54,268 nt of DNA, taken from positions 1-54,268 of IMG/VR virus record IMGVR_UViG_3300009170_000002. One strand, written 5' to 3'. The notes below the pieces were generated by a model. It was not told where the DNA came from. It was given only the letters and a program-made list of their open reading frames with translations, and ran no database searches. This DNA is from a virus. Shown here piece by piece: positions 30,396-53,382 of the stretch (position 1 is the first letter of the stretch; the number at the start of each line of letters is the position of its first letter). Both the position numbers and the translations under genes were made by a program.

Positions 30396-30490
30396 TACTT
30401 TATGTGCATATTGATGTGAATACCAATATGGGGTATGCCCTTTTTATCGTTTTCGTTTGCGGGTTCATAGTCGTTTACTTTGCCGCTATC

Positions 30491-30525
30491 TTAATCGTAA
30501 CCGTAACGGTTAAGGTAACGATTAA
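30491..30525. repeat. Imperfect inverted repeat in divergence region
   Basis: TTAATCGTAACCGTAA (30491-30506) and TTAAGGTAACGATTAA (30510-30525) are complementary at 14 of 16 positions around a 3-base centre. The arms resemble the iteron sequence downstream, so the same protein may bind both. Confidence 0.7.
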
Positions 30526-30541
30526 GGTTGATTAGGTCATT

Positions 30542-30550
30542 TGATATAAT
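30542..30550 (+). promoter_or_regulatory. Plus-strand TGATATAAT before the iterons
   Basis: An extended -10 motif reading into the iteron array. No gene starts for 500 bp, so a transcript from here could serve as a replication primer or activate an origin. Confidence 0.35.
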
Positions 30551-30586
30551 CAGTCTAGGTTGATTCGTTATTTTAGTTATTTTTTT

Positions 30587-30720
30587 CTTAATCAACCTTA
30601 ATCTTAATCAACCTTAATCGTAATCAACCTTAATCGTAATCAACCTTAATCGTAATCAACCTTAATCGTAACCGTAATCTTAATCAACCTTAATCTTAAT
30701 CTATCATATATCACTATATA
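30587..30720. repeat. 16-bp iteron array next to AT-rich stretch; origin candidate
   Basis: Direct repeats of ATCKTAATCAACCTTA: a partial unit at 30587-30600, full units at 30601, 30617, 30633 and 30649, a variant at 30665-30676 and another full unit at 30677-30692. An AT-only stretch (ATATATCACTATATATATA) follows. Iterons beside an AT-rich segment at the point where transcription diverges is the layout of many replication origins. An initiator protein was not identified. The bases 30396-30586 upstream contain only the inverted repeat and promoter motif listed here. Confidence 0.7.
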
Positions 30721-30843
30721 TATACGTGCCGGCACTTTTACTATGAAATGCCATCGTGCCCTATTTTGAGGAGGTTCGGTCGCGAGCCCCCTCATATCGG
30801 GGCAATTTGGCTAATGATGACCCAACAAACTGCGATAATATCT

Positions 30844-30952
30844 TCCTAAATGAACAGAACACGAATGTTTGTTATTTCACTCCGACACCTAATTCCCTAA
30901 GAATTAGGGGGAAGGTGTGAAATAACACACAGAGTGTTCTGTTCATTTAGGA
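30844..30952. repeat. 109-bp interrupted palindrome
   Basis: Perfect 19-base outer arms (TCCTAAATGAACAGAACAC, 30844-30862, and its complement at 30934-30952), then 11-base inner arms TGTTATTTCAC/GTGAAATAACA, then CACC/GGTG and CCTAA/TTAGG at the centre. As RNA or single-stranded DNA this folds into one long arm with small bulges. No gene and no U-run. It could be an origin structure, a recombination or resolution site, or a structured leader. Confidence 0.75.
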
Positions 30953-50967: not shown

Positions 50968-51040
50968 CATTCGTCATACCATAAGTCATTACATTTCATT
51001 ACACTTTTACTATGTACATCTGCAGGCGTCGTGATAGAAT
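50968..51040 (+). promoter_or_regulatory. Early regulon promoter copy 8 with operator half-sites
   Basis: TGTACA at 51013-51018, 16 bp, TAGAAT at 51035-51040; upstream TTCGTCAT and two direct TCATTACATT half-sites. The leader differs from the others (no CATAATCAA). It drives the small membrane peptide and the long structured stretch after it. Confidence 0.7.
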
Positions 51041-51089
51041 TGCTTCTGTACGATTGAACATTACAAAGTGAATATGAAAGGAGGAAAGA

Positions 51090-51248
51090 ATGAGGGCCAT
51101 TTTGGTGATCCTCATGGTGATCCTGGTCGTCCTTCTAATCGCGGTAGCGGTTTGGGGATTTGGAAAAGTTTACAACCAAATTTTCGAACTCGCCGAGATT
51201 GCCGGAGACGCATTCAGGCACCAAATGCGGGGAAAGATTTTTCCCTAA
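51090..51248 (+). CDS. Small single-pass membrane peptide, 52 aa
   Basis: ATG 51090 with GGAGGAAAG upstream. The 52 residues (MRAILVILMVILVVLLIAVA, then VWGFGKVYNQIFELAEIAGD and a basic end) form one long membrane helix and a short amphipathic tail. Although short, it has the best binding site in the region. It is the only clear protein between promoter copy 8 and the large structured RNA candidate, so both are on one transcript. Confidence 0.75.
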   Translation: MRAILVILMVILVVLLIAVAVWGFGKVYNQIFELAEIAGDAFRHQMRGKIFP

Positions 51249-52345
51249 ACGTTCTGGAGGTCAACGTGCAAGTGACCACGACCTCACCCGATAACCCCGG
51301 TGACGACAGGAAGTCCCAATCCGGGTGGGTAGGAGTAACCGGCCTTCCAATCTTTTGAAAAGGGATCAACAGCCAGGGGAGGGAGCGGGTTCATCCGGGA
51401 CAACCGGAAGCGAAGCCGAAAGTCTACCCTCCACCAGAAGACCGGAGACAAATGCCGGCTCTCAAGGCGGAACCGAGAGACGTAAGCCTGTAGCTTCCAA
51501 TCCCTTTTCAAATCTGATTTTTTCTCCGAAGCCACAAGAGGAGTCCTAATGGGAACCGGACAGAATGTCGGAGATAAGAAATTCCCCAAGAGGGAACCGG
51601 TCTCGCACCACTTCGTCGTAACAGGCGAAGCAGAACCAAGAGTTCTGGGCTTCAGAGAAAAAATCAGATTGAGCACTTTCAAAGGTGAGCCAACAGACCA
51701 GTTTCGGTAAAATTCCTTTGGTCGGGAATGAGGAGCAGGAGTTTCACTCTCCAAATTGAAAACGATTGGTTCCGAACCGAAAAGTTGGCCACCGCTGAAA
51801 GTGCTCAATCCAGAAAATTTTCTCCCGTTAAGTTGGGCAACGAGTCGATCCTCTACGTCCCAATGGGTGCGACCAAGTGAGGGAAAGCGGAGTGACAGGC
51901 CATAATCCGCAACGGAGGATGACGAACGCCAATACCTCCAAAAACTTGGGAAGATCCAGCGTGATCGAGACCGTCCGCAAGTTCAAAGATTTGAACCTCT
52001 ACGAGAAGAAGCGCCCAAGTACGACGGTTATTTTGGACTCTACCGAGATTGAGTCCTACCCGATCGAGCGAGACCTAGTGGATACCCGGTTCAACTAAGT
52101 GCGGCGAGACCAACAGGAGTAAACCAGTTGGACGCTATGTTGAAAAGGAGGACAAGTTATCCACCTCGATCGGGAACTTCCAAAGTTCTCGAATGCCGCG
52201 ATGGCGAGGTTCAAAAAAATTGGAACCAGCACGGACAATCCGTTCTAAAGATGGACCCGGGTTGCCCACCAATTCACAATTGGCGGACGAAGGTTCAAAT
52301 CATTCCGCGGCAGCCGAGAAAGTTGGAAGTCAAAATTGGAGGAAT
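51249..52345 (+). ncRNA. Candidate giant structured non-coding RNA, about 1.1 kb
   Basis: No frame here has a convincing start and binding site or protein-like texture, yet the strand is packed with exact complements. Long-range helices include 51354-51366/51500-51512 (13 bp), 51513-51533/51648-51668 (20 of 21), a nested arm from 51671-51680/51797-51806 inward to 51702-51708/51776-51782, 51834-51841/52261-52268 (8 bp closing a 430-base domain), 51944-51950/52014-52020 and 52059-52068/52165-52174 (10 bp). Many short GC hairpins fill the loops. Size, two large domains and phage setting recall GOLLD and ROOL RNAs; I do not recognise either consensus. Transcribed from promoter copy 8. Confidence 0.75.
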
Positions 52346-52348
52346 GAA

Positions 52349-52711
52349 ATGAAACAGTCAGTTGCAATGAAACACCTTCGCACGATGCTCTTTACAATCC
52401 AAAAAATCAGATCAACGATGGACGAAAACGGTGAGGTCAAACTCGACGATCAGTTTTCTGTCGAGGTCGCTTCAGGGATGTGGAAATATATTTGGGGCAA
52501 CAAGTCAGTTTTACCGATCCTGTCGAAGGTAATTGACCAAAGTGAGGAAACCGGAAAACTCGAACCACTCGCGTTCTACAATATGATGATCATTGCAACG
52601 GAGTTCGAGCCCCTAATCATGAGTGCGGCAGGGGCGATTGACGAAACGTTTCCCGCAGTTGCCTCAATTTATTGGCTGCTGGGATGGGATCCAGAATGTA
52701 ATGAAATGTAA
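52349..52711 (+). CDS. Hypothetical early protein, 120 aa
   Basis: ATG 52349 with TTGGAGGAATG upstream, immediately after the structured RNA. 120 residues, mostly helical (KHLRTMLFTIQKIRSTMDEN, FYNMMIIATEFEPLIMSAAG). VEVASGMWKYIW is reminiscent of ISDGMWE in the protein at 52815. The last seven residues (DPECNEM) are encoded by the first operator half-sites of promoter copy 9. Function unknown. Confidence 0.75.
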   Translation: MKQSVAMKHLRTMLFTIQKIRSTMDENGEVKLDDQFSVEVASGMWKYIWGNKSVLPILSKVIDQSEETGKLEPLAFYNMMIIATEFEPLIMSAAGAIDETFPAVASIYWLLGWDPECNEM

Positions 52712-52774
52712 TGAGACGTTCATTACAAATCATTACATTTCTACTATGTACATCTGGTGGCATCGAATTAGAAT
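52697..52774 (+). promoter_or_regulatory. Early regulon promoter copy 9 with operator half-sites
   Basis: TGTACA at 52747-52752, 16 bp, TAGAAT at 52769-52774; full operator of two TGTAATGA and two inverted TCATTACA half-sites, overlapping the end of the preceding gene. Drives the gene at 52815. Confidence 0.75.
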
Positions 52775-52814: not shown

Positions 52815-53333
52815 ATGTCCACCAAGTCCACCCTCAATGTTTTAAAAGTTTCCACCCAAGAAGAAAAAATTCTCTTCGTTACCGAATTCGCCGGGCAAAT
52901 TTCAGACGGAATGTGGGAGAGCGTACCCGGAGATCACTGGCAAGTTTGGACCGGTTGTGAAGTTCAGGTTTGCCCCGAAAATCCCGGAAGAAATTTCTGG
53001 GCCCGCAAGGATAATTACAACCTCGCATCGAAAAGCCTCCTCGAAGTTGTGGGAGATCGGATGCTCTTCACCCTGAACCTCATCATGCAGGACGGGCTTC
53101 CCGAAGAGATTTGGAGAGAACTTCCCGAAGGCACGAGTGAACACCTCTTCACTTCTTCAGACCCTTACTTCGTTGCAAGACGAGAAAAGCTGGCTACCTT
53201 CGGAGTTACCCAGGCCCGATGCTTAGAAATTCAGCACCAGATTGAAAACAAGGTTCCGGGATCATTCACATACATGGACATGCGGAAGGCGATCACCCGA
53301 TTACGCAACGCGATGAAAACCTTCAACGCATAA
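52815..53333 (+). CDS. Hypothetical early protein, 172 aa
   Basis: 172 residues with AAGGAG. The first third has LFVTEFAGQISDGMWESVPG followed by WQVWTGCEVQV, a pattern seen in several phage early proteins of unknown role; the carboxy half is helical and charged (KLATFGVTQARCLEIQHQIE, MRKAITRLRNAMKTF). Alone between promoter copy 9 and a strong terminator. Confidence 0.75.
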   Translation: MSTKSTLNVLKVSTQEEKILFVTEFAGQISDGMWESVPGDHWQVWTGCEVQVCPENPGRNFWARKDNYNLASKSLLEVVGDRMLFTLNLIMQDGLPEEIWRELPEGTSEHLFTSSDPYFVARREKLATFGVTQARCLEIQHQIENKVPGSFTYMDMRKAITRLRNAMKTFNA

Positions 53334-53355: not shown

Positions 53356-53382
53356 TGGGACTCGAAAGGGTCCCATTTTTTA
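53356..53382 (+). terminator. Rho-independent terminator
   Basis: TGGGAC (53356-53361) pairs with GTCCCA (53370-53375), loop TCGAAAGG, followed by a run of T. Ends the transcript of the 172-aa gene. Between 53334 and 53634 lie only this terminator, the promoter-like element at 53390, its hairpin and promoter copy 10. Confidence 0.85.

Follow-up and report, generated by a model that had tools for sequence, protein, structure and literature searches.

The window analysed here is the whole of the 54,268-bp virus record IMGVR_UViG_3300009170_000002, which carries an exact 123-base repeat at both contig ends (1-123 and 54146-54268) and is therefore probably a complete genome, assembled as a circle. 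Judged from its predicted proteins, among them a terminase, a capsid protein, a DnaE-type polymerase, a DnaB helicase, a primase, and a ThyA-like enzyme, the source virus is a tailed phage, and an isolated one, with full-length protein matches to cultured phages mostly at ~28-38% identity. At positions 51249-52345, a region of about 1.1 kb separates two small open reading frames (ORFs) on the + strand. The upstream ORF (51090..51248, 52 codons) has a strong ribosome-binding site, AAAGGAGG, and encodes a single hydrophobic (membrane-type) segment; its codon signal is weak, and its product found no family match in Pfam or PHROG. Directly downstream, the region is adjoined by a 120-codon ORF (52349-52711; 52335..52711 with its ribosome-binding site at 52338-52342) that bears a clear codon signal, and whose product has no family match in Pfam or PADLOC and a structure prediction of low confidence.

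The whole unit lies behind a putative phage promoter on the + strand (50975..51040), composed of operator-like CATTACA repeats, the element TACTATGTACA, a -35 box TGTACA (51013), and, after a 16-nt spacer, an extended -10 box TAGAAT ending at 51040, from which transcription would be expected to start near 51047. The preliminary description of this DNA had proposed expression from a phage promoter, and as a sequence match this was borne out by a promoter scan; some ten similar sites occur in the genome. These near-identical promoters, at 870, 1733, 2333, 2699, about 3174, 37079, 51008, 52742, 53572, and 54026, have a core of TACTATGTACA ... TAGAATT that hardly varies, in most cases behind CATTACA repeats, and precede small genes of unknown function, a gene for a VWA protein, and the region studied here; together they apparently constitute a phage regulon. 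The member at 52742 is the next promoter downstream of the 120-codon ORF, and a terminator-like site follows at 53356-53375; the same scan found no terminator or processing site between the region and the 120-codon ORF.

The absence of a credible gene from these ~1.1 kb, also part of the preliminary description, was confirmed with a codon-usage score trained on the phage's own genes, in which true frames average 0.19 and wrong frames -0.05 bits per codon. From 51205 to ~52250 all six frames stay in the range of wrong frames, and the signal is regained in the frame that carries the 120-codon ORF (52349). The longest ORF within the region, 174 codons on the antisense strand, has no codon-usage support. 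By these scores the region has no coding potential, as would be expected of a large structured phage non-coding RNA.

The folding stability of the region is far beyond that of shuffled controls. The + strand of 51249-52345 has a minimum free energy of -404.8 kcal/mol. The mean of 100 dinucleotide shuffles is -334.4 +/- 8.7 (z -8.1), so that the region lies 70 kcal/mol below that mean and below every one of the shuffles, the best of which reached -353.6. Other shuffle sets gave z values of -9.2 (60 shuffles) and ~-5.8 (two sets of 20-24), and the excess stability expected of a large structured phage non-coding RNA was found both across these sets and arm by arm, as detailed below. When 21 further 1.1-kb segments from elsewhere in the genome were scored, 20 gave z values between +1.4 and -3.5, the sole outlier being a repeat and hairpin region at 30501. 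The many exact complementary segments noted beforehand are likewise real, in that exact helices of at least 10 bp total 54 bp in the region; the average over 300 shuffles was 2 bp, and none exceeded 30 bp.

Folding of this kind proves neither the strand nor the RNA level, because both strands of the region fold about equally well and G-U pairs make up only 5% of the + strand pairs. The same two facts keep a DNA-level element, such as a replication, recombination, or packaging site with its inverted repeats extruded as DNA hairpins, in play as a minor and rather improbable rival, which the location of the region in a variable stretch (see below) would also suit. Against such a site stand ~1 kb of nested, branched arms, a strong asymmetry of A over T, and a promoter of its own; moreover, the region is devoid of iterons, and a better origin candidate, with repeats, exists at 30490-30700. 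The + strand is indicated by the promoter, by both flanking ORFs, and by the base composition: on this strand T falls to 18.8% and A rises to 30.1% (27.1% and 28.0% in the genome), a T-poor, A-rich bias that resembles that of large structured RNAs.

The fold resolves into five self-closed arms of ~115-160 nt each on the + strand, of which arms 1-3 abut without a linker and arms 4-5 do likewise after a middle stretch of ~250 nt. Arm 1 (51354..51512, z -3.9) is closed by a 13-bp helix, 51354-51366/51500-51512 (pair probability p 0.93). Arm 2 (51513..51668, z -7.0) has a near-perfect closing helix, 51511-51533/51648-51670, formed by a 23-nt inverted repeat of 96% identity, and contains hairpins at 51611-51630 and 51631-51647. 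Arm 3 (51667..51810, z -6.7) is closed by helices 51667-51681/51796-51810, 51684-51687/51790-51793, and 51689-51694/51784-51789 (p 0.88-1.0), arm 4 (52059..52174, z -4.0) by the 10-bp helix 52059-52068/52165-52174 (p 1.00), and arm 5 (52176..52330, z -5.3) by helices 52176-52183/52323-52330, 52186-52191/52315-52320, and 52194-52200/52306-52312 (p 0.98-0.99). The leader (51249..51353, + strand) is not significantly structured when folded alone (z 0.1), and the overall fold of the middle segment (51811..52058, + strand) is not significant either (z -1.0), although it likely contains two or three local hairpins (51887-51910, 51981-51996, and 52035-52056; p 0.89-0.96). The extent of ~1.1 kb first proposed for the RNA therefore holds for a core of five arms at 51354-52330, with the leader 51249-51353 and the middle 51811-52058 at chance level.

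The individual pairings listed at the outset fared unevenly. Fourteen of the 21 helices and hairpins are supported with p of at least 0.89, namely the helices starting at 51354/51500, 51513/51648, 51671/51797, 51684/51790, 51689/51784, 52059/52165, and 52110/52127, and the hairpins starting at 51611, 51631, 51887, 51981, 52035, 52208, and 52269. The other seven are not. They include the supposed long closing helix, 51834-51841/52261-52268, which has a pair probability of 0.00; by our own estimate about nine 8-bp matches are expected by chance over all position pairs in 1.1 kb. The remaining failures are helices 51702/51776 (p 0.15), 51944/52014 (0.19), and 52090/52139 (0.23) and the hairpins starting at 52174 (0.00), 52231 (0.11), and 51914 (0.49). 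A decayed gene or spacer that folds well by accident of chance or composition might be suspected in a single sequence in which two of seven segments fold no better than shuffles, but a z of -8.1 against dinucleotide controls, five independently significant arms, and long exact helices make this the least credible of all the explanations considered.

A weightier alternative is a cis-acting intercistronic element: as part of the mRNA, the structure would adjust how well the 120-codon ORF (or the upstream peptide) is translated or how stable its message is, one possible means being occlusion of the ribosome-binding site. The structure leads directly, with no terminator in between, to the ribosome-binding site that serves ORF 52349-52711, and pairing is predicted between 51344-51351 and that very site (52335-52342, p 0.67), as well as between 51256-51276 and 52357-52379; it is this combination that makes cis control a live rival. 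The end-to-end pairing, however, was selected post hoc and has weak significance, being matched in 10 of 1000 shuffles for the stretch picked afterwards and in 370 of 1000 for a wider stretch, and control of this type needs far less than 1 kb of sequence with five elaborate arms. We regard a cis element as unlikely, though deserving of more weight than any of the other rivals.

GOLLD and ROOL are phage-encoded RNAs that form RNA-only cages, and we know of no established purpose for these cages. GOLLD assembles into a homo-14-mer cage, and for both RNAs multimeric particles have been shown (PMC12286853). GOLLD is often located near tRNA islands (PMC12286853), and a frequent proximity to tRNAs has been noted for both families (PMC7567579). 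The region studied here shares with GOLLD (RF02032) its origin in a phage, a length of 800 nt or more, and an elaborate fold, and with ROOL (RF03087) the character of a large ornate phage RNA, and it had accordingly been put forward as either a member of these families or a new class beside them. Membership found no support. A cmscan against Rfam, in which GOLLD, ROOL, OLE, and HEARO were the models of interest, matched no family in the region at E <= 5 and none in the whole 54,268-nt window at E <= 0.1; ARAGORN found no tRNA genes in the genome, so that the tRNA neighbours of GOLLD are missing; the region is enclosed by two ORFs of a single unit; the conserved 3' half of GOLLD is unrecognisable in it; and at ~1 kb it is longer than ROOL (~570 nt). 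Dedicated searches with the GOLLD and ROOL models gave nothing at E <= 10, and add little to the cmscan, since neither had a true positive control above the cut-off (no known GOLLD was among the controls, and the ROOL control rang nowhere).

A GOLLD- or ROOL-type RNA that has diverged beyond the reach of the Rfam models would account for the size, the phage origin, and the ornate fold, and a relative of the phage, introduced below, does hold a 26-tRNA array, the usual setting of such RNAs, but beside no RNA of this kind. With no match at E <= 5 to 10, no tRNA in the phage's own genome, and five self-closed arms in a row, a layout unlike those described for either family in our reading of the descriptions, we consider such divergence improbable. 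Still less probable is the RNA of a mobile element or intron (group I, group II, or HEARO/omega RNA) separated from its protein: a large branched RNA between two ORFs, missing from the matching place in the relative, would fit, but neither the group I and group II intron models nor the HEARO model of Rfam matches the region at E <= 5.

Relatives were sought with the primase, DnaE (as a single sequence and as an alignment), ThyA, the major capsid protein, and the 120-codon protein, and further with the promoter motif and two loop-only RNA patterns, in viral collections and one genome scan. Among the matches listed, the only true relative phage in IMG/VR is G033 (IMGVR_UViG_3300033143_006496, 39,331 bp), whose DnaE is 52% identical and whose replication genes stand in the same order; closer relatives may exist, as the collections possibly omit near-identical records. 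The RNA region belongs to a variable stretch, the interval between the primase and metallophosphatase genes, which measures ~8.2 kb in our phage (across the contig ends) and ~1 kb in the relative. The RNA is absent from this interval of the relative, the DNA of which gave no match to the region, and the tRNA array of the relative lies elsewhere. No homologue of the RNA was found in phages, plasmids, IMG/VR, or the genome scan, among the matches listed, and over 1.76 Mb a covariance model of arm 3 alone recovered nothing but its own locus, on either strand. Sixteen matches of the two loop-only patterns look like chance; none has extended similarity, and they coincide with open frames 98 to 882 codons long.

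Closer parallels are offered by phage RNAs outside the named families. In ICP1 the most abundant transcript, of ~800 nt, arises from a 1-kb gap without ORFs (PMC7567579), and phage K produces the unclassified long non-coding RNAs lnc001 and lnc002 (PMC9241854). Like the region here, these occupy long ORF-free stretches and are of GOLLD- or ROOL-like size with family membership not shown; they are abundant by RNA-seq, whereas the present RNA is predicted from sequence, and the ICP1 gap, read on the strand that carries its neighbouring genes, folds with a z of -2.3, compared with -5.8 for our region in the same run. OLE, a large structured RNA encoded beside the gene for its small membrane-protein partner OapA, invites a further comparison, in that the 52-codon hydrophobic ORF adjoins the region; with no Rfam match here, no Pfam or PHROG match for that ORF, and OLE residing on a bacterial chromosome and not in a phage, the parallel is one of analogy only.

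The region is a real and unusually strong structured non-coding element, which belongs to no recognised family and has one known copy. On balance we favour the view, with modest confidence, that 51354-52330 specifies a non-coding, highly structured + strand RNA of a phage operon, most likely a structural RNA acting in trans. Arguing for this are a fold z of ~-8, five significant arms, long exact helices, the lack of a coding signal, a dedicated promoter, a T-poor and A-rich strand, and the absence of an Rfam match, together with the precedent of ORF-free gaps in other phages that yield abundant, unclassified RNAs of comparable size (PMC7567579, PMC9241854); against it stand the missing terminator before the 120-codon ORF, the insignificant middle 250 nt, and the ability of both strands to fold well. 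The best reading of its kind is a lineage-specific large structured phage RNA, comparable to GOLLD and ROOL and to the RNAs of ICP1 and phage K, and of the two placements first proposed for it, a new class is the one left standing, as judged from a single sequence.

The transcription, processing, independent function, scaffold role, and partners of this trans-acting RNA are all matters that we infer, and they might be connected as follows. Driven by one of the ~ten co-regulated promoters, the RNA would be transcribed as one operon with the 52-codon membrane peptide and the 120-codon protein. Made during infection, it would fold into its five arms and act in trans, perhaps after host RNase III has trimmed it at the long helices, and would become a compact particle or scaffold, perhaps self-associating or binding the flanking small proteins. 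Arms that abut would lend themselves to coaxial stacking and to a multimeric particle or scaffold of the kind shown for GOLLD and ROOL (PMC12286853), and a role in assembly or scaffolding is suggested by analogy. The bolder form of this idea, a new giant phage RNA class unrelated to GOLLD, ROOL, or OLE that forms, together with the upstream membrane peptide, a multimeric or membrane-tethered particle, seems to us doubtful. Whether phages resort to giant structured RNAs repeatedly is a question on which each independent class of such RNA would help, and the present one supports the view that family databases miss lineage-specific giant RNAs in phage genomes; with its defined set of promoters and a small gene on either side, it also provides handles on function.

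Several minor observations concern other parts of the two genomes. The stretch 30490-30952, between two divergent gene blocks, contains TTAATCGTAATCAACC in repeated units along with a near-perfect hairpin of 109 nt (30844-30952); it folds with a z of ~-8 per 1.1 kb and is a candidate replication origin or regulatory site. The small proteins encoded at 191-841 and 52815-53333 have no Pfam match and are similar by eye (motif PGR.F.A..D.....), probably as paralogues within the variable region. In the relative phage, the GC-rich gaps were considered as further large RNAs and rejected, most of them being the tRNA array. Inside this array, a 126-nt stretch (L188:13066-13191) matches the whole of the tmRNA model RF00023 at 41.3 bits (E 3e-14), which falls just short of the gathering threshold (47). 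Ordinary tmRNAs are far longer, and the stretch is possibly a minimal tmRNA or a remnant. Finally, a 0.9-kb gap of the same genome (L188:4731-5640), without any ORF of at least 100 codons, folds on one strand with a z of ~-9 (12 shuffles).
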